A stretch of 52,334 nt of DNA. Origin: a virus. Below the pieces are notes generated by a model, which did no database searches, had not been told where the DNA came from, and saw only the letters and a list, made by a program, of their open reading frames with translations. Positions 16,922-52,334 of the stretch are shown piece by piece. A program made the position numbers and the translations under genes. The stretch is from the IMG/VR virus record IMGVR_UViG_3300049491_000673, positions 1 to 52,334 of that record, one strand, 5' to 3'. The number at the start of each line of letters is the position of its first letter. Positions within the stretch are counted from its first letter, which is position 1.

Positions 16922-18337
16922 TTAGGCACTTTTTCGGAGTCTCTCTCCCAGCTCTCTGACGTAGTTAGCCAGTTTCGAAGCTCCTACGGAACCTCCCAAC
17001 CGAATCTTATGACCTTCGGATATCAGACGGTTCATCTCGACGAGCCGTTGGAATATCTTTGACGTGTCGTCAGAGTCGAATCCTGCTCTCCCCATAATAG
17101 CATACAGAGTATTGCGGCTGTCGTTGCCTGGCATTGATTCCAGGACTTCGCGGACGATGGCATAAGCACGTCCTTCGATGCTCTTGTCGAGTCCGACATA
17201 TGCACCATCCATGTCTATTTCAGCCAGCCCCAGAATGACGTGAGCGAGAGCAACGTCCCGGCGGTTAACAACGTAGGGTGAGTCGCCACGTAGCAGGCAG
17301 ACCAAGGCTGCGATGCGTGCAAGATGATCCGACCGTCTGGAGGCATAGGCATTGAGTCGAAACTCGAGGGTCGGGACGTTCCAATTGTAGAGGTACACGT
17401 ATTCTTGTTCCGCCTCCTCGGAAAACGTGATCTCTCCGATTCCATCTGTCATCATCCGTTTAAGAGCATCGAGTAACCGTTCTTGTACAACGGCCTCTGC
17501 TGGGGATTGCTCTGGCGGGATAGGAACTGAATCGCCTTCCGCCCCTGCGTAGACAAATATGATACGGGACAGTATGCCGTGAGTGTGAGAATCTCTAGGT
17601 AGGATGCTGGCGAGATTCCCAGGAGTAGTCGCACCGAGGAGATTGATAAGTGGCGAAGGTATTCGTATGTTCCCTGATTTAGTCTGATAGAAGATAGGTT
17701 CGTTGTCGAGTCCATCAGCAAAGAAATCAAGGAGTTCACGCGTTTGCGACGTGAGGAGTCGCCCCAGCTCTTTGCTAGCAAAAAATATAGAGGATGGTCT
17801 AGTGCCGTGCCGCCCCATATGTGTGAGCACTGAGTCGAAGGAAGTAGTCCCCAGTTCGTCGAGTGATCCAGGTACCATGCTTGTTCCCGAATCATCTCCT
17901 CTGTCACGATAATCATCTTGCCACCTCGCTTGCATTGCAGTCATGATTCCATGTCGTGCTCCGCCAGTGTCCGTCGGACCGTAGTTCAGACTCAGGCTAC
18001 GGGCAAACCGCTGCATGAAATTGATGGCTGAACTTTTCCTGACCGCCGGTCGTCCTATCAGGACGATTCCAAGGTTCAGCTTCTTCCGCCCAATGATGCC
18101 GCGCGAAAGATAGCCGCTGTTGGATGCCAACGCGGCTGTTAAGGAGATCAGACTCCACAGGTGATACTGTTTCGGACTCTCTGTGTGCTCGACCAGAGCT
18201 ATGTAATCTCGGACTGCGTACAGAGAGGCGTCGAAGATATCAAGCGCCTGCGGGCTGTCCCATAGATTCGCCCACAAGAGCTCCGAACCAATGATGGCGA
18301 GCTCTTTGGTCGATCGATTCGCTATAGGGGAGTGCAT
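16922..18337 (-). CDS. DUF3987/primase-helicase-like P-loop ATPase
   Basis: 471 aa. Residues 91-103 (IVLIGRPAVRKSS) form a P-loop-like motif (GxPxxxKSS) as seen in the DUF3987/YfjI group. These proteins occur in mobile elements and phages as primase- or helicase-associated ATPases. Further conserved-looking blocks are SSIFFASKELGRLL (Walker B-like strand plus sensor region) and SPLINLLGATTPGNL. The C-terminus has a winged-helix-like part (SRNTLYAIMGRAGFDSDDTSKIFQRLVEMNRLISEG). A replication helicase or ATPase role is inferred from its neighbours. The ATG start implies a 98-bp overlap with the upstream gene and has no Shine-Dalgarno; a TTG near residue 21, preceded by GGAG, is an alternative. 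Confidence 0.6.
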   Translation of the reverse strand: MHSPIANRSTKELAIIGSELLWANLWDSPQALDIFDASLYAVRDYIALVEHTESPKQYHLWSLISLTAALASNSGYLSRGIIGRKKLNLGIVLIGRPAVRKSSAINFMQRFARSLSLNYGPTDTGGARHGIMTAMQARWQDDYRDRGDDSGTSMVPGSLDELGTTSFDSVLTHMGRHGTRPSSIFFASKELGRLLTSQTRELLDFFADGLDNEPIFYQTKSGNIRIPSPLINLLGATTPGNLASILPRDSHTHGILSRIIFVYAGAEGDSVPIPPEQSPAEAVVQERLLDALKRMMTDGIGEITFSEEAEQEYVYLYNWNVPTLEFRLNAYASRRSDHLARIAALVCLLRGDSPYVVNRRDVALAHVILGLAEIDMDGAYVGLDKSIEGRAYAIVREVLESMPGNDSRNTLYAIMGRAGFDSDDTSKIFQRLVEMNRLISEGHKIRLGGSVGASKLANYVRELGERLRKSA

Positions 18338-19309: not shown

Positions 19310-19633
19310 CTATGAAATTTTGAATAAGTTATCCACAGCTTTTTGCATGCGATTCGGATCAGGGCTATTACATCGATTCTTATTCTGGTCAGCCATAGTA
19401 ACCCAGCGTAGATTGCCTGGTTGATAACCCTTGTCATTATTGATTCGGTCCAATGTGTAGTATCGTTTACCGAAGTTAGGAAGAGTCGAAACATATTCAT
19501 AAAACTTTTTTTCGCTAACTTGCCATGGAAAGTAAACGGTGATTCCACGTCCACCGTATCGATGAAATGCTGTATGCTTATGATTAGTACAACGTTGTAT
19601 CATATTTCTCCATGTGTAATACAATGGGGTCAT
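19310..19633 (-). CDS. HNH homing endonuclease (free-standing)
   Basis: 107 aa. YYTWRNMIQRCTNHKHTAFHRYGGRGITVYFPW followed by YTLDRINNDKGYQPGNLRWVTMADQNKNR is the signature of phage HNH endonucleases (conserved YGGRGI, LDRI(N/D)NDxGYxPGNxRW and the closing N). The ATG overlaps the polymerase stop (ATGA), so it is translationally coupled to the polymerase gene, a common site for homing genes. The region is AT-richer than its neighbours, as expected for transferred DNA, yet carries five GANTC sites in 324 bp. It is the same family as the gene at 31426. Confidence 0.85.
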   Translation of the reverse strand: MTPLYYTWRNMIQRCTNHKHTAFHRYGGRGITVYFPWQVSEKKFYEYVSTLPNFGKRYYTLDRINNDKGYQPGNLRWVTMADQNKNRCNSPDPNRMQKAVDNLFKIS

Positions 19634-29812: not shown

Positions 29813-30160
29813 TTAGCCATGGTGGACTCGGACCTTGTAGCCGAGGAATCGAAGGATTTTTATGACGGTCCCCGCCCTCGGTGCCTTCGTTTCACCGTAA
29901 GCAATGCGTGAGATCGTCGAGTGATTCATGCCCAACTTCGTGGCTATCTGATTAACCGTCGTCTTTCCATGGTGCATGTACTGAAAGAGTTCGTCCTGCA
30001 TGAATCGACAGACGCTGCTATCATCCTCCCAGTCGAGTACAAAGCTGTTCGACTTAGGACGAATCGGACCCGGGCCTCGTGCCGCCAGCACTTCCCGAGT
30101 CTGTTTGTTTATCATCGCCATTTCTTTCGGTTCTAGAATCGACATTAACCCGCTAACCAT
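29813..30160 (-). CDS. Helix-turn-helix transcriptional regulator
   Basis: 115 aa. TTVNQIATKLGMNHSTISRIAYGETKAPRAGTVIKILRFLGYKV (residues about 67-110) is a Cro/CI-type HTH. The N-terminal half is phage-specific and includes DSSVCRFMQDELFQYMHHG. The start at 30160 has GTGGAGTATCTGAA upstream, overlapping the previous gene; an ATG at 30145 overlaps its stop. With no lysogeny module visible, it may control early-to-late timing. The dyad-rich repeats at 41908-41997 are an obvious candidate target. Confidence 0.75.
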   Translation of the reverse strand: MVSGLMSILEPKEMAMINKQTREVLAARGPGPIRPKSNSFVLDWEDDSSVCRFMQDELFQYMHHGKTTVNQIATKLGMNHSTISRIAYGETKAPRAGTVIKILRFLGYKVRVHHG

Positions 30161-40308: not shown

Positions 40309-41322
40309 ATGGCGAAACAGCCAAACAAGACCGACTCGACCGAAAGCACGGAAACCGGCAGCAATGCCGAACTCGACCAGATCGACCAGACCTTGCAGCA
40401 AGGCGAAGGCGAAGGCTCGACCGAAGGCGAAGGTTCGACCGACTCGACCACGCAGACCGCGCCCGTCTATTCCAATGGCACGACCGACGCCGCGATCATC
40501 GCGAGCGTGAAGAAGGCAATCGGCGGAACCAAGGAAGAAGTCCGCAAGGTGTTTGAGTCCGCAGCCGTAGCGCAACCGGCATTCGACGCCGCCGCCGCAA
40601 TCGCGAGGACCATCAATCTCCCCGTGAAACAGAACGACATTCCCGCAGGAATGCAGGCTGTTGTGGCTGTTGTGGGTGCTCGACTCACCAATGAGACCAC
40701 CAAGAAGAAAGACACAGCGATCCGCGCGCTTGTCATGTTCCCGCTTCCATCGTCCGACGCATTCATGGAGGACGAGAAAGGAATCCAGTGGGTACGCAAG
40801 CTGATCGAGAAGGAGGCCGCCCACGTTGCATTCCGCGCGCTACGCAACGCCGAAGGCCCCGAAGAACTGTTGCTTGCGGCCGAAGGAATGCCCGCCGATG
40901 TTTCGTCCTACGTCGAGCAGTACAACGCGGGCGATGGACTCGACACGACGACGTTTGATATCGTTTGGCCCGCCGTTCGCGAGCACATCAAGAGCAAGAG
41001 CCCGAAGCTTGTGGCGACGTTCAGCCCGAAGGCGGAAATGCTCAAAGGCATTCGTTCCAAGCAGTACGCCGAATCGACGCCGGAATTGCAGCCGCTGGAG
41101 AAGATCGACCTCTTTAACTACATCGCCAAACTCTGCATTTTCGTCGCCGACAACTACATTAACGAGGAGACCAAGCAGGCCGAGCCGCTCGATTCGACCG
41201 AGATTGCCGCTTGGATTGCCAACCGCGCAACCTACGTTCCCGCCGTGCGCGCCACGCCCGAAAAGGACTTTGGCGCTATCGCCGGACTCGACCTCAACAA
41301 TCTGTTGGGCAACATAGGCTGA
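40309..41322 (+). CDS. Abundant early protein of unknown function, 337 aa
   Basis: 337 aa; AGAAGG lies upstream of the ATG. Residues 1-50 are low-complexity Thr/Ser/Glu/Gly/Gln (STEGEGSTDSTTQ). An Ala-rich helical body follows, then LDLNNLLGNIG at the C-terminus. Third positions are strongly C/G (GCC GCC GCC GCA ATC GCG), unlike most leftward genes, which suggests high expression tuned to a GC-rich host. It is the first gene on the rightward arm and has a hairpin terminator after it. No family is recognised; a host-takeover or DNA-coating role is conceivable. Confidence 0.7.
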   Translation: MAKQPNKTDSTESTETGSNAELDQIDQTLQQGEGEGSTEGEGSTDSTTQTAPVYSNGTTDAAIIASVKKAIGGTKEEVRKVFESAAVAQPAFDAAAAIARTINLPVKQNDIPAGMQAVVAVVGARLTNETTKKKDTAIRALVMFPLPSSDAFMEDEKGIQWVRKLIEKEAAHVAFRALRNAEGPEELLLAAEGMPADVSSYVEQYNAGDGLDTTTFDIVWPAVREHIKSKSPKLVATFSPKAEMLKGIRSKQYAESTPELQPLEKIDLFNYIAKLCIFVADNYINEETKQAEPLDSTEIAAWIANRATYVPAVRATPEKDFGAIAGLDLNNLLGNIG

Positions 41323-41334
41323 CACGCGAAAGAC

Positions 41335-41356
41335 CCCGGCGCGCAAATGCGCCGGG
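41335..41356 (+). terminator. Hairpin after the 337-aa gene
   Basis: CCCGGCGC (41335-41342) pairs with GCGCCGGG (41349-41356) around GCAAAT, 12 bases after the stop. Only a weak T-rich stretch follows, so it is probably a partial terminator or 3' protector. Confidence 0.55.
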
Positions 41357-41389
41357 CTTCACTCATTCACACAAGGATTGATTCTCCCA

Positions 41390-41524
41390 ATGACCCGCGT
41401 TCCCGCAGACTTCTATGACATCACGCCAGAGCAGCGAGCCGCTATGATCGAGCGGCGCACGTTTGAGTCCGCATGTTGCGGGAACTCAGGCGCGCCGAAC
41501 GCTGGCCACTCACACAGGCGCTAA
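41390..41524 (+). CDS. Small early protein, 44 aa
   Basis: ATG at 41390 after AAGGATTGATTCTCCCA. The sequence begins MTRVPADFYDITPEQRAAMIERR and ends Gly/His/Arg-rich. The DITPEQRAAMIERR segment looks like a short helix. The end overlaps the start of the membrane peptide at 41473 in another frame. Coding status is likely but not certain. Confidence 0.45.
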   Translation: MTRVPADFYDITPEQRAAMIERRTFESACCGNSGAPNAGHSHRR

Positions 41525-41580
41525 TCTATAGTGTGGCTGGAATCATCGCACTTGCTTTGCTTGGATTCCTATCCCATTAA
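41473..41580 (+). CDS. 35-aa single-span membrane peptide
   Basis: The ATG at 41473 (TTTGAGTCCGC upstream) opens a 35-aa frame. It has a basic N-terminus (MLRELRRAERWPLTQ) followed by a hydrophobic helix (ALIYSVAGIIALALLGFL) and stop. The basic-then-hydrophobic layout suggests an inner-membrane peptide with its N-terminus inside. In an early block such peptides often inhibit host functions or superinfection. It overlaps the 44-aa frame by 52 bases. Confidence 0.5.
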   Translation: MLRELRRAERWPLTQALIYSVAGIIALALLGFLSH

Positions 41581-41587
41581 TGCGTCA

Positions 41588-41615
41588 CCGGCGGAGGCAA
41601 TCCCGCCCCCGCCGG
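41588..41615 (+). terminator. GC-rich hairpin before the 83-aa gene
   Basis: CCGGCGG (41588-41594) pairs with CCGCCGG (41609-41615). No T-run follows. Confidence 0.35.
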
Positions 41616-41640
41616 AACCACTCGACAAGGACTCGACCCT

Positions 41641-41892
41641 ATGACGAAAGCACTTGCTAACTACCGCTTGAACCGTGACGCTTACGAGATCGAGCGTCAC
41701 AACCCATCGCATTCAATCGAATCCGTGAACATCACGCGCGAAGTGACCGAGCGACTTGCTACCATTCAAGACGCCCTCGACCTTCACGCCGTCATCATGG
41801 TTCAGATCGAAGGCCGCGACATGATGCGCGAGCGAATCCGTCAGGCCGAGGACGCATGGCAAGACTTACTTGCACTTTACTTTGAGTCCTAA
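41641..41892 (+). CDS. Hypothetical early protein, 83 aa
   Basis: 83 aa; AAGGACTCGACCCT precedes the ATG. Predominantly helical and charged (NITREVTERLATIQDALDLHAVIMVQIEGRDMMRERIRQAEDAWQDLLALYFES), possibly a small coiled coil. It is the last gene of the early rightward block and sits immediately before the iteron-like repeats. Confidence 0.6.
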   Translation: MTKALANYRLNRDAYEIERHNPSHSIESVNITREVTERLATIQDALDLHAVIMVQIEGRDMMRERIRQAEDAWQDLLALYFES

Positions 41893-41907
41893 CGCGAATG
41901 CTTGGCG

Positions 41908-41997
41908 CAAGTATAGTTTTGCTTGCGCCAAGTATAGTTTTACTTGTGCCAAGTATACTTTGAACCGAGTCAAGTATAGTTTGGGCCACTATACTTG
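41908..41997. repeat. Iteron-like array, 21-bp period
   Basis: CAAGTATAGTTT (third copy CAAGTATACTTT) begins at 41908, 41929, 41950 and 41971, exactly two helical turns apart. The first three copies form dyads CTTG-N3-CAAG with the bases before them. The fourth pairs with an inverted copy ACTATACTTG at 41988-41997, giving 10-bp arms and a 7-base loop. The array could bind a replication initiator or a repressor such as the HTH protein at 29813. Confidence 0.8.
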
Positions 41998-42048
41998 TCT
42001 TTACTCTGATTCTACTTGATACAACTAGGAGTTGAGTCGCCCATAAAT

Positions 42049-42130
42049 CCCCAAAAATTCGTTCAATTTTTTTTTACGACTCGACTGCGCTTCGCTCGTC
42101 TCGTCTAAAAAATTGAACGAATTTTTGGGG
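42049..42130. repeat. Perfect 24-bp inverted repeat
   Basis: Left arm 42049-42072 (CCCCAAAAATTCGTTCAA then six T) and right arm 42107-42130 are perfect inverted copies around a 34-base GC-richer loop that can itself pair (ACGA with TCGT). The outer ends are C4/G4 and the arms AT-rich, with nine T after the left arm. It could extrude as a cruciform or act as a bidirectional terminator. Confidence 0.85.
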
Positions 42131-42208: not shown

Positions 42209-42292
42209 AAAGACTAAAGGTCGAAGGAGGAGATCAAAGTCAGTGGTAGACCTTGGGACTCCTAATTGCTATGACGGGGGTATAAGCCCCCC

Positions 42293-42334
42293 ATTCTGGA
42301 CTGAGGTGGGCTGCATTAATATGACTCCCAGAAT
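42293..42334 (+). terminator. Terminator-like hairpin with T-rich tail
   Basis: ATTCTGG (42293-42299) pairs with CCAGAAT (42328-42334), followed by TTTTATATATA. The 28-base loop makes it weak. It would separate early transcripts from the late operon. Confidence 0.4.
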
Positions 42335-42418
42335 TTTTATATATAAAAAATTTATACCACTCCTATTCTCGTGAGTCAGTAGCAGGGCGTCCTCCTGAAT
42401 CAGAATGATGGTGTAGAA

Positions 42419-43195
42419 ATGGCCGGGCATCCCAACCGAGAAATTCAAGTTGATTCAGACCTCGAAGAGAACCTGAGTCAGATCATCGATGCTATGCCGA
42501 ATCTGGTCAAGGAGGCAGAGGAGAAGCAGCGACAGGAGCTGGATAAGGCAAAGCGGCCAGAGTTGACTCGAATCGCGCAGTTGATCTTGCAGATGGATGC
42601 AAGGGCGATTAGCAGCAGTGAGAGTCAGGAGATGGAGATCAAGAGTGAGTCGAGGAGGAAGTTGGCGGCGAGCCTCGGCTGCACGGCGGATGATCTGCAG
42701 TCAGTAGTGGATTCGTATGGAGAAGATCACTGGCAAGAGATGGTGCTGGAGGAGAGAGTCAGACACGGAATTGCCAGTACGGATATGCGGGACATCAGCT
42801 GGGACAGGCTGGAGTCAGCTACGCTGAAGAAGCTACTGCTGTTGGTGGATGCGAATAAAGTGGGAACGGTGCAAGAGTTATTGCAGATCGCGACCGCAGC
42901 CAACAAGGCGAATCGAGGGCAGCGATCCTCTTCGAGTCAAGGTGCTGGAGGGTTCAATGTACAGCAGAATAATGTCTATTTGCCTGGTAGTCCTGCTGAT
43001 GGTGTTCTGCCTGGAGGTAATCTCGGGAAGATTCATCTCAATCTGGGTCCTAGAGTCGTTCGACAGATAGAGGCGAGTCGGAATATTGATATGACGGGCG
43101 CTCCGGAGTTTGAGGGAAGGAAGCTGGATTCTATTGAGATGCTGGACCTTAAGCAAGTTCAACAGGCCATTACGGATGTGGAGACGCAGAAGTGA
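42419..43195 (+). CDS. Putative small terminase subunit
   Basis: 258 aa. It directly precedes the large terminase gene (GTGA overlap), the usual place of the small subunit that recognises phage DNA. N-terminal helices (LEENLSQIIDAMPNLVKEAEEKQRQELDKAKRPEL), a helical centre, then a Gly/Asn/Gln-rich linker (QGAGGFNVQQNNVYLPGSPADGVLPGG) and a short helical C-terminus that may contact the large subunit. The ATG has only a weak Shine-Dalgarno. The assignment is by position; the sequence motif is not diagnostic. Confidence 0.6.
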   Translation: MAGHPNREIQVDSDLEENLSQIIDAMPNLVKEAEEKQRQELDKAKRPELTRIAQLILQMDARAISSSESQEMEIKSESRRKLAASLGCTADDLQSVVDSYGEDHWQEMVLEERVRHGIASTDMRDISWDRLESATLKKLLLLVDANKVGTVQELLQIATAANKANRGQRSSSSQGAGGFNVQQNNVYLPGSPADGVLPGGNLGKIHLNLGPRVVRQIEASRNIDMTGAPEFEGRKLDSIEMLDLKQVQQAITDVETQK

Positions 43196-44736
43196 CTCAG
43201 GAAGTCACATTAAACAAGCATGAATTGCTAATGGCGATTCGTAAAGAGTGCGTCATGTTCTTGGCATTCTATCTTGGTGAGGAGTTGACTCTCACAGTTC
43301 CAGAGTTCCACATAGAAATTTGGGACGAGTTGCTGGAGATACTGGATCAGGTGAATCAACCTGACCAAGTGATCGGGCATTTGCAGAAGTTGTTTGCAGT
43401 GCCCAGAGAGCACAGTAAATCAACTCTAGCAAAGCTGGCTGTCATCTTATTCATGAGATACAGTCCATTTCGATTCACGATGTACGTGTCCAAAACGAAT
43501 ACGGTGGCCATGCAGGCCATCAAGGACATTATCATGTGGCTAAAGAGTCCACAAGAGCAGGAGTTGTATGGCCCAGTCACGATGGTGAAGAGTAATGAGA
43601 CAGAGTCCCTGTGGATTCTAATCATCTTCCTGGCAGATGGAAGGACACAGAAGCGGATCATTTTCAAAGCGATGGGTTCGAATCAACAGGTTCGTGGCAC
43701 CCTGATCGAAAACATGCGTCCTGAGTTAATTATTCTGGATGATATCGAGGACTTGGACACGGCTGATGATGGGATTCAGCAGAAGAAGCTGAATGAGTGG
43801 GTCATGGGCAGCTTGCTGAAGGCCAGCGCACGTCGCTCTGTGCGAGTGTTCGTCGGAAACATGATTCGAAGCACAACACTCTTGGCGAAGTTGAGTAAGG
43901 ATCCAGAGTGGAATCCAACAGTGTTCGGTGCTTTGGTGAAGGACAAGGTGACGGGCAAGCTGCAAGCACTGTGGGAAGGTCGATGGACAGTCGCTGCGTT
44001 GCTCAAGGATTATATGAGTTATCGTCGACTCGGACTTGGACATGTGTGGGAAGCAGAGATGATGAATCTTGCTGCTGACACGTTGTTAGCCATGAATCTG
44101 GATGGATCAGTGATTGTGCCAGACATAAATCCAGAGGAGTTGACAGCTGGATTCATTTGCCTTGATCCTGCATTCGGACAGAATTCGTGGAATGATGAGT
44201 CAGCGATTACAGTTCACGTGCGCAAACACGGAGTAGGGATACCTATTGTCTGCGATTCGAGGAAAGGGAGATGGACAGAGAGCCAAGTGTTCGACGAGAT
44301 GATGGCACTAAGCTATTACTGGAATCTGGCGACATGGACTATCGAAGCGGCGGCAGCCCAGAAACTCCTGATTCCACTCTTCCGACTCTTTTGCATCGAG
44401 AGAGGGATGCCACCCGACACCTTCACGATTCTCCCTATGACTGGTGGGCAGGAAGCGAAGAGCAGTAGAATCAATGCGTTCCGCCAATCCATCGCAAGTA
44501 AAAGTTACGGTTTGACAGAAAGCCAAATCGAACTCAAGCTAAGGCTGGAGGAATACTCTCCGGATACGAAAGTGCACGATGACTTGTGCGATTCAGGAGC
44601 TTTCGGTCCAATCGTATGGAACATGTACGGTCAGATGATCGAGAGTCAAGGCGTGCAGAGCATGGCTGGAAGGCTCATGCAAGTCAGGAATCAGAACACA
44701 ATGAATCTAGGAGAGCGCGATGTCTGTCTATTCTAA
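43192..44736 (+). CDS. Large terminase subunit (T7-like packaging motor)
   Basis: 514 aa, GTG start at 43192 with GGAGACGCAGAA upstream. The ATPase has Walker A VPREHSKST (70-78, the PRxxxKS form of T7-like terminases) and Walker B LIILDDIED (179-187). The nuclease has CLDPAFG (D325), WTIEAAAAQ (E385) and VHDDLCDSGAF (D463, D464). It pumps DNA into the prohead and cuts it. Its last 17 bases overlap the portal gene. The closest known packaging relatives should help predict the genome ends. Confidence 0.85.
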   Translation: MTQEVTLNKHELLMAIRKECVMFLAFYLGEELTLTVPEFHIEIWDELLEILDQVNQPDQVIGHLQKLFAVPREHSKSTLAKLAVILFMRYSPFRFTMYVSKTNTVAMQAIKDIIMWLKSPQEQELYGPVTMVKSNETESLWILIIFLADGRTQKRIIFKAMGSNQQVRGTLIENMRPELIILDDIEDLDTADDGIQQKKLNEWVMGSLLKASARRSVRVFVGNMIRSTTLLAKLSKDPEWNPTVFGALVKDKVTGKLQALWEGRWTVAALLKDYMSYRRLGLGHVWEAEMMNLAADTLLAMNLDGSVIVPDINPEELTAGFICLDPAFGQNSWNDESAITVHVRKHGVGIPIVCDSRKGRWTESQVFDEMMALSYYWNLATWTIEAAAAQKLLIPLFRLFCIERGMPPDTFTILPMTGGQEAKSSRINAFRQSIASKSYGLTESQIELKLRLEEYSPDTKVHDDLCDSGAFGPIVWNMYGQMIESQGVQSMAGRLMQVRNQNTMNLGERDVCLF

Positions 44737-51983: not shown

Positions 51984-52334
51984 ATGTCTTTCAAATCCAG
52001 CCCAGGGAACATTCCTATCGTGCGTGAGATTCTCATGCGCGGTGATCCGGAGCGTGGAATCAAAGGTTTGAGAGGGTTCGCGTTGGCTGGAGCACTGGCC
52101 AGGGTGAAGTCTGAATCACAGTTCGATCCAAAGGCGGTTCGGCTGAATGATGCTGGGCCGGGAAAGCATAGCCGTGGCTTGCTTCAGTGGAATCGTTCGC
52201 GCTTGGCTCGTTTGCAGAGGTATGCAAACGATACTGGGCAGGACTGGAATGACGTGCGGACTCAGGCCAAGTACTTCCTACGCGAAGTCAATGGGCTTGA
52301 GGAGCCAAAGGAGAAGAAGTATGGCGCTCAACTC
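51984..52334 (+). CDS. Virion-associated lysozyme, N-terminal part (continues at base 2)
   Basis: ATG at 51984 follows AGAGGGAATC. The frame is open through the circular join and ends at 844 in the first copy, giving 355 aa in total. The start reads MSFKSSPGNIPIVREILMRG. The segment ALARVKSESQFDP...SRGLLQWNRSRLARLQRYA resembles the Phage_lysozyme2 (PF18013-like) fold, in which a glutamate in the first helix (here E of KSESQF) and a GxxQW motif are typical. The likely role is local cleavage of peptidoglycan from the virion during DNA entry. It lies directly downstream of the endolysin gene and upstream of fibre genes, consistent with a tail-tip enzyme. The family assignment is by eye. Confidence 0.7.
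   Translation, partial: MSFKSSPGNIPIVREILMRGDPERGIKGLRGFALAGALARVKSESQFDPKAVRLNDAGPGKHSRGLLQWNRSRLARLQRYANDTGQDWNDVRTQAKYFLREVNGLEEPKEKKYGAQL
52208..52334. repeat. Terminal overlap, right copy
   Basis: Exact copy of bases 1-127. Removing one copy gives a 52,207-bp circle. Confidence 0.95.

Follow-up and report, generated by a model that had tools for sequence, protein, structure and literature searches.

A 21-bp-phased repeat array between the early and late genes of an uncultured phage is a candidate initiator-binding site

In the replication origin of phage lambda, direct repeats of about 20 bp follow one another in tandem at a single locus, with AT-rich DNA next to them. Small terminase subunits have their sites in regions such as cosB of lambda and pac of SPP1, and the P1 centromere parS gathers several phased sites of both orientations into a single locus. 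We analysed a stretch of 52,334 nucleotides from a virus (IMG/VR record IMGVR_UViG_3300049491_000673), hereafter called the window, which contains an array resembling these systems in part. As in Rep_3 iteron origins, it consists of tandem direct repeats of about 20 bp at a single locus beside AT-rich DNA; it differs from Rep_3 plasmids and from the lambda origin by the absence of a recognisable adjacent initiator gene and of a nearby DnaA box, and by the fact that the phage has its own polymerase and primase. Compared with operators of the Cro/CI type (XRE, HTH_3), its word and its 21-bp step are almost those found ahead of HTH_3 genes in two bacterial loci, L104 and L107, whereas its four copies are direct and mostly asymmetric, none is found at other promoters and the regulator gene is not adjacent. 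Like cosB and pac, it lies close to the gene at the small-terminase position (terS) and to a G-run/C-run element, but on the far side of this element, and the equivalent array of contig G001 is 2 kb from terS. It shares with parS the phased sites of both orientations at one locus, but no partition gene was found among the window proteins scanned.

Structure of the array and its genomic setting

The array is built from the word CAAGTATA[G/C]TTT, which starts at 41908, 41929, 41950 (with one change) and 41971. Every start-to-start step is 21 bp, that is two helix turns, and the array is thus phase-locked. Its elements are:

41908-41919, plus strand: array copy 1, CAAGTATAGTTT, exact; outer dyad CTTGGCGCAAG at 41901-41911
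41929-41940, plus strand: array copy 2, CAAGTATAGTTT, exact; outer dyad at 41922-41932
41950-41961, plus strand: array copy 3, CAAGTATACTTT, one mismatch; core AAGTATACTT, a perfect palindrome; outer dyad at 41943-41953
41971-41982, plus strand: array copy 4, CAAGTATAGTTT, exact; without outer dyad
41988-41997, minus strand: inverted copy ACTATACTTG, forming a 10-bp hairpin with copy 4
42007-42018, minus strand: weak second inverted copy CAAGTAGAATCA, three mismatches, 21 bp from the first inverted copy

The first inverted copy pairs with 41971-41980 over 10 bp, leaving a loop of 7 nt, and since the second one lies 21 bp past it, the direct and inverted blocks both run in 21-bp steps. CTTG-N3-CAAG dyads starting at 41901, 41922 and 41943 accompany copies 1 to 3, the first two being able to pair with each other in a 14-15-bp stem (41898-41935). 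The core is palindromic in one of the four copies, and the outer dyad is present in three of the four. The spacers are widely different. The earlier note, made from the sequence alone, had described four 21-bp-spaced repeats, a terminal inverted copy making a 10-bp hairpin, three CTTG-N3-CAAG dyads and AT-rich, palindromic neighbouring DNA. Our analysis agrees on each point, three of the repeats being exact and one carrying a single change, and the neighbours being a 24-bp inverted repeat and a segment of 78% AT (42315-42364).

The probability of such an array arising by chance was evaluated with a word-blind statistic, which retains 12-mers that are alike at 11 or more of 12 positions in successive copies at any lag from 15 to 40. 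Applied to the window, it returned one four-copy array (41908, lag 21) and one further three-copy array (47336, lag 24), and none of 60 windows simulated with a first-order Markov model contained an array of three or four copies. Single copies of the word are about as frequent as expected by chance, with 29 matches at up to three mismatches, the array counted, versus 21 +/- 4.5 in shuffles. The array is one locus within the 52-kb window, and no copies were observed at other window promoters. A sigma-70 promoter was also searched for within the array, where the sole match, on the minus strand, was weak (9/12) and not convincing.

The ends of the window are identical over 127 bp (1-127 and 52208-52334), indicating that it is probably the complete, circularly assembled genome, of about 52.2 kb, of an uncultured bacterial virus. 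The minus strand encodes a family-A DNA polymerase, a primase-like protein, a RecD-like helicase, a PD-(D/E)XK nuclease and an HNH endonuclease, and the packaging genes are on the plus strand. The terminase, capsid and polymerase of the phage indicate the PaP2/PaMx41 group (Fredfastierviridae according to the PaMx41 record) as its distant named relatives (about 25% identity). Phage Shea, a member of this group, was reported to persist as an episome (PMC13348215), so that one could envisage a plasmid-like origin in the window phage as well as a regulatory switch. The array stands between the early and the late genes, in the following setting:

29813-30160, minus strand: HTH_3 protein, named in the earlier note as a candidate binder
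40309-41322, plus strand: 337-aa protein, with a homologue at the same place in five of eight clade contigs (window, L009, L023, L025, L026)
41641-41892, plus strand: 83-aa ORF, ending 15 bp before copy 1
42049-42072 and 42107-42130: perfect 24-bp inverted repeat with a 34-nt loop
42276-42323, plus strand: clade element made of a G-run, TAT and a C-run (42276-42295), then TTAATATG (42316-42323), upstream of the TerS-position gene
42315-42364: AT-richest 50 bp of the genome, 78% AT, 318 bp downstream of the array
42419-43195, plus strand: TerS-position gene, the first late gene past the array, so named by position and weak similarity to the same-position gene of relatives
43192-44736, plus strand: terminase large subunit (phrog_38)

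The clade element follows the pattern GGGGG..TAT..CCCCCC and then, in most cases after about 19-20 bp, TTTAATATG. It is shared by seven clade phages, as seen in an alignment of seven phages, and recurs in L027 (window 42276-42323; L009:5829, L021:301, L024:2468, L025:8427, L026:2255, L027:5986), and we consider it a candidate late promoter or cos site. In the array-less contigs L025 (8209-8407) and L023 (3320-3406), the same zone contains CTCGCTTCGCTCG repeats, and several of these repeats overlap a GANTC site. A similar sequence, CTGCGCTTCGCTCG, is found within the loop of the 24-bp inverted repeat of the window.

With a gap of about 421-422 bp between the end of the array and the TerS-position gene, the array might be a packaging signal, in which small terminase would bind cosB- or pac-like sites by a cos-like G-run/C-run element. 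The 422-bp distance, the recurrence of this element upstream of terS in the clade phages and L027, and the variation among relatives in both the TerS-position gene and the repeats of the zone are in line with such a role. However, the window array lies across the element from terS, and an endolysin gene occupies part of the 2 kb that separate the G001 array from its terS (phrog_51); we regard a packaging signal as improbable. A separate scan with the TerS-position protein found no relatives.

The array zone folds far better than shuffles (z -11.7 as DNA, -10.1 as RNA), as would be expected if its stems acted as DNA or RNA hairpins, in processing, termination or a single-strand origin, and not as protein sites. 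Much of this excess, however, comes from the 24-bp inverted repeat, the equivalent zones of six relatives show weak folding or none beyond that of shuffles (z +1.0 to -3.8), and the arrays of G001 and its sister G003 are free of inverted copies, apart from the imperfect symmetry that the word itself has, all of which makes hairpins a very improbable explanation. Hairpins conserved among the relatives were not supported in these six zones.

The word pair in other viruses and ahead of HTH_3 and Rep_3 genes

The exact word pair at 21 bp was found in three other IMG/VR viral contigs, G001, G002 and G003, and was absent from a collection of genomes covering 84,980 species. Leaving the spacing free at 12-42 bp gave five contigs, with a spacing of 21 in three, 22 in one (L007, an exact tandem) and 33 in one (L008, a long repeat array), and the last two were set apart as being of another kind. 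When the array and its zone were compared by BLASTN with named phages and plasmids, nothing beyond chance was returned, and the proteins of the fragmentary contigs G001-G003 gave no match to window proteins at E 1e-3. The nearest relatives of the window, L009/G004 and L021-L026, are without the array.

In all three contigs, the array is upstream of late genes and points towards the terminase genes. The AT-richest 50 bp of contig G002 are located about 260 bp downstream of its array. G001 and G003 are sisters, with terminases 94% identical; their array block is nearly invariant, the changes affecting mainly spacer letters, and their flanks are heavily diverged, so that the words and the 21-bp step have been kept and the spacers are freer. 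This comparison indicates that word and spacing are under selection between the two sister phages. The array could otherwise be a recent tandem duplication of a 21-bp unit devoid of function, in keeping with near-perfect duplicated pairs elsewhere (G002 at 21 bp and L007 as an exact 22-bp tandem). The widely different spacers of the window, the footprint in the sister phages and the recurrence at the same kind of position argue against it, and we judge it the least probable of the explanations considered here.

When the pair was relaxed to a looser form, two copies of AAGTATANTT at 21 bp, it was found in 28 stretches of viral contigs and at least 119 of genomes, the latter being mostly AT-rich noise among the matches listed. 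We used 105 of 144 new loci, among the matches listed, and counted the genes whose start faces an intergenic pair. HTH_3 genes accounted for 6 of 56 genes facing the looser pair, versus 2 of 120 genes facing control positions taken from these loci (p 0.013 in a one-sided Fisher test; among the matches listed), a modest value for a pattern chosen after the window had been seen. For Rep_3 initiators, the counts were 2 of 56 and 0 of 120, which is not significant (p 0.10; among the matches listed). Five of the six HTH_3 genes were viewed individually (L080, L094, L104, L107 and L142). Near-identical words stand directly ahead of small Cro/CI-type genes in L104 and L107, and 21-bp pairs of a related word stand ahead of Rep_3 genes in L047 and L140. 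Since HTH_3 and Rep_3 genes both face 21-bp pairs, both known kinds of 21-bp array use related words. In the bacterial loci L104 (5373-5720) and L107 (6919-7280), the small Cro/CI-type gene and an ORF of 55-56 aa are divergent, and AAGTATACTT-type sites separate the two, which are apparently an uncharacterised regulatory pair.

The array could be a cooperative operator or activator site, at which an HTH regulator would fill the phased sites and repress or activate a late promoter, perhaps the clade element at 42276-42323. The HTH_3 excess and the words of L104 and L107 point in this direction, together with the location of the G001/G003 array in a divergent early/late intergenic region, the palindromic core AAGTATACTT of copy 3 and of the G002 copies, and the presence of an HTH_3 protein in the window. 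However, the palindrome is broken in three of the four window copies and in the main G001/G003 copies, other window promoters and the nearest relatives have no such array, and the statistic combines a modest p, a post hoc pattern and 105 of 144 fetched loci. Moreover, an operator usually has its regulator gene beside it, and the sole HTH_3 gene found in the window (29813) is 12 kb from the array, with no array copies near it. We take an operator to be a serious possibility, with the odds against it.

Reading the array as an iteron-like origin

The late-gene position of the array and the HTH_3 statistic lean to an operator; its copies, mostly asymmetric, direct and confined to a single locus, lean to an iteron-like origin. 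We favour the latter, and propose with a probability of roughly 40% that the array is a candidate binding array for a phage initiator, forming an iteron-like origin at the early/late junction. From the sequence we infer all three components of this reading, namely that a protein binds, that this protein is an initiator and that replication starts here. Iteron origins are characterised by a single locus of direct repeats, each about 17-22 bp long and arranged in tandem, as found here in exact 21-bp repeats that are asymmetric in three of four copies, and by an adjacent AT-rich unwinding region, for which the AT-richest DNA at 42315-42364 is a candidate unwinding element. A nearby DnaA box is common in such origins, though not universal; no exact box was found near the array, the sole one in the window being at 19329.

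The cumulative GC skew of the window has its minimum at 42102, close to the array, and its maximum at 17847, nearly opposite on the 52.2-kb circle. The skew is still falling across the plus-strand genes at 40309-41892, so that its turn coincides with the array zone instead of the early/late divergence. In the array-less relatives L009, L021 and L023-L026, the turn of the skew likewise falls within this zone or close to it (L022 being too short to tell), so that the skew marks the zone and does not single out the array. The gene for the 337-aa protein may itself be C-rich, which would shift the turn, and gene composition is a possible cause of the turn as a whole. Against an origin also stand the nearest relatives, which have no array, and G002 and G006, in which no skew minimum was observed at the arrays. 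The location of the array fits a late-gene control region equally well.

The 303-, 331-, 251-, 337- and 457-aa proteins of the window, among them the 303- and 337-aa candidate binders of the earlier note, matched no PHROG or Pfam family, and no binding protein or initiator was recognised among the adjacent and unnamed early proteins scanned. The AlphaFold model of the 337-aa protein was poor (mean pLDDT 56), and no PDB match was obtained at E 0.001 or better. The earlier note had proposed an iteron-type origin or a cooperative operator. Phasing, recurrence and conservation between the sister phages support the protein-binding array that both have in common, and the sequence does not pick one of the two.

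If the array is an iteron-like origin, a sequence-specific protein encoded by the phage, most likely its initiator, would land on the four direct sites, which are on the same face of the helix. One strong and one weak inverted site would close the array, and filling would be cooperative. Bending or wrapping of the DNA by the bound complex would then lead to opening of the AT-richest stretch, about 320 bp downstream, and this stretch would serve as the loading site of the phage helicase, primase and family-A polymerase.

Word switching among relatives of G001 and GANTC enrichment in the clade

A search with the G001 terminase gave 68 loci, including G001 and G003 themselves, the only two with the CAAGTATA array. 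At least 2.5 kb of upstream sequence was available for 38 loci. An exact 11-mer recurs at lag 21 in 13 of these, in many cases as a coding-type or low-complexity repeat, and lag 18, found in 15 loci, is more frequent than lag 21. In the zone corresponding to that where G001 and G003 have the word of the window, four relatives with terminases 83-88% identical to that of G001 each show a dense array of their own word, with copies in both orientations; L189, L192 and L202 came from the lag scan and L239 was found via the centre that the four arrays share, CAATGA(A/T)ATCAAC. The words consist of TTGTC plus GGGC, CGCTC, GCGCAC or CGTCA. Forward sites are at -17 in all four arrays, with others between -28 and -70, and reverse sites are at +24, +35 and +66/67 in all four. 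We counted 10 to 13 copies, versus means of 0.1 to 1.0 for shuffled words (shuffle maxima 3 to 10). The L239 word has eight exact copies in its 43-kb record, all of them within 160 bp, and a 10-mer of L202 has nine copies in its 19.9-kb record, of which eight are inside the cluster. The arrays, located at L189:1086-1420, L192:662-870, L202:1955-2120 and L239:159-375, are followed by a GTGTCTA..GACAC hairpin. The lag-21 repeats of L214, L220, L221, L231, L232, L235, L236 and L250, mostly low-complexity or coding-type by eye, were set aside, and the lag-21 matches of L210 outside its array were left out of the word-switched count.

The sequences of these four relatives indicate that the architecture is kept while the word changes. 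They suggest a class of phage control sites, probably origins, with a helix-locked geometry and a word exchanged between close relatives, the window array being one such word, shared across terminase families; we put this forward tentatively and rate it as somewhat unlikely. If true, such origins or switches, swapping their word and keeping their spacing, would form a natural series from which to learn how the DNA specificity of a phage protein changes without loss of its assembly geometry, and arrays would help to find where origins or switches lie in uncultured phages. The window array also offers a small and directly testable target.

The window is also rich in GANTC, with 898 sites versus about 203 expected, a 4.4-fold over-representation. 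Their density is 16.9 per kb in the listed genes and 17.5 per kb outside, and the listed genes contain 757 sites versus 294 after synonymous codon shuffling (z 36). The observed/expected ratio is 3.3 to 4.9 in all eight clade contigs (window, L009/G004 and L021-L026), 0 to 1.34 in 17 more distant terminase relatives (L027-L043) and 0.31 to 1.43 in four named phages. A link between GANTC and the array was looked for and not found, the other array contigs not being GANTC-rich. No extended motif was found around GANTC and no methyltransferase among the window proteins scanned, which cover part of the ORFs; among the titles and abstracts listed for GANTC together with phage, none reports such an enrichment. 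The GANTC sites may serve a genome-coating protein as landing sites or may act as a sink for a CcrM/GcrA-like host system. The sites of the window are evenly spaced (mean 58 bp, CV 0.49, one gap above 160 bp). In the clade pool (about 2584 sites in 154 kb), gaps above 150 bp represent 0.6% versus 8% expected, and short distances, below about 40 bp, are under-represented apart from those near 22-25 bp.
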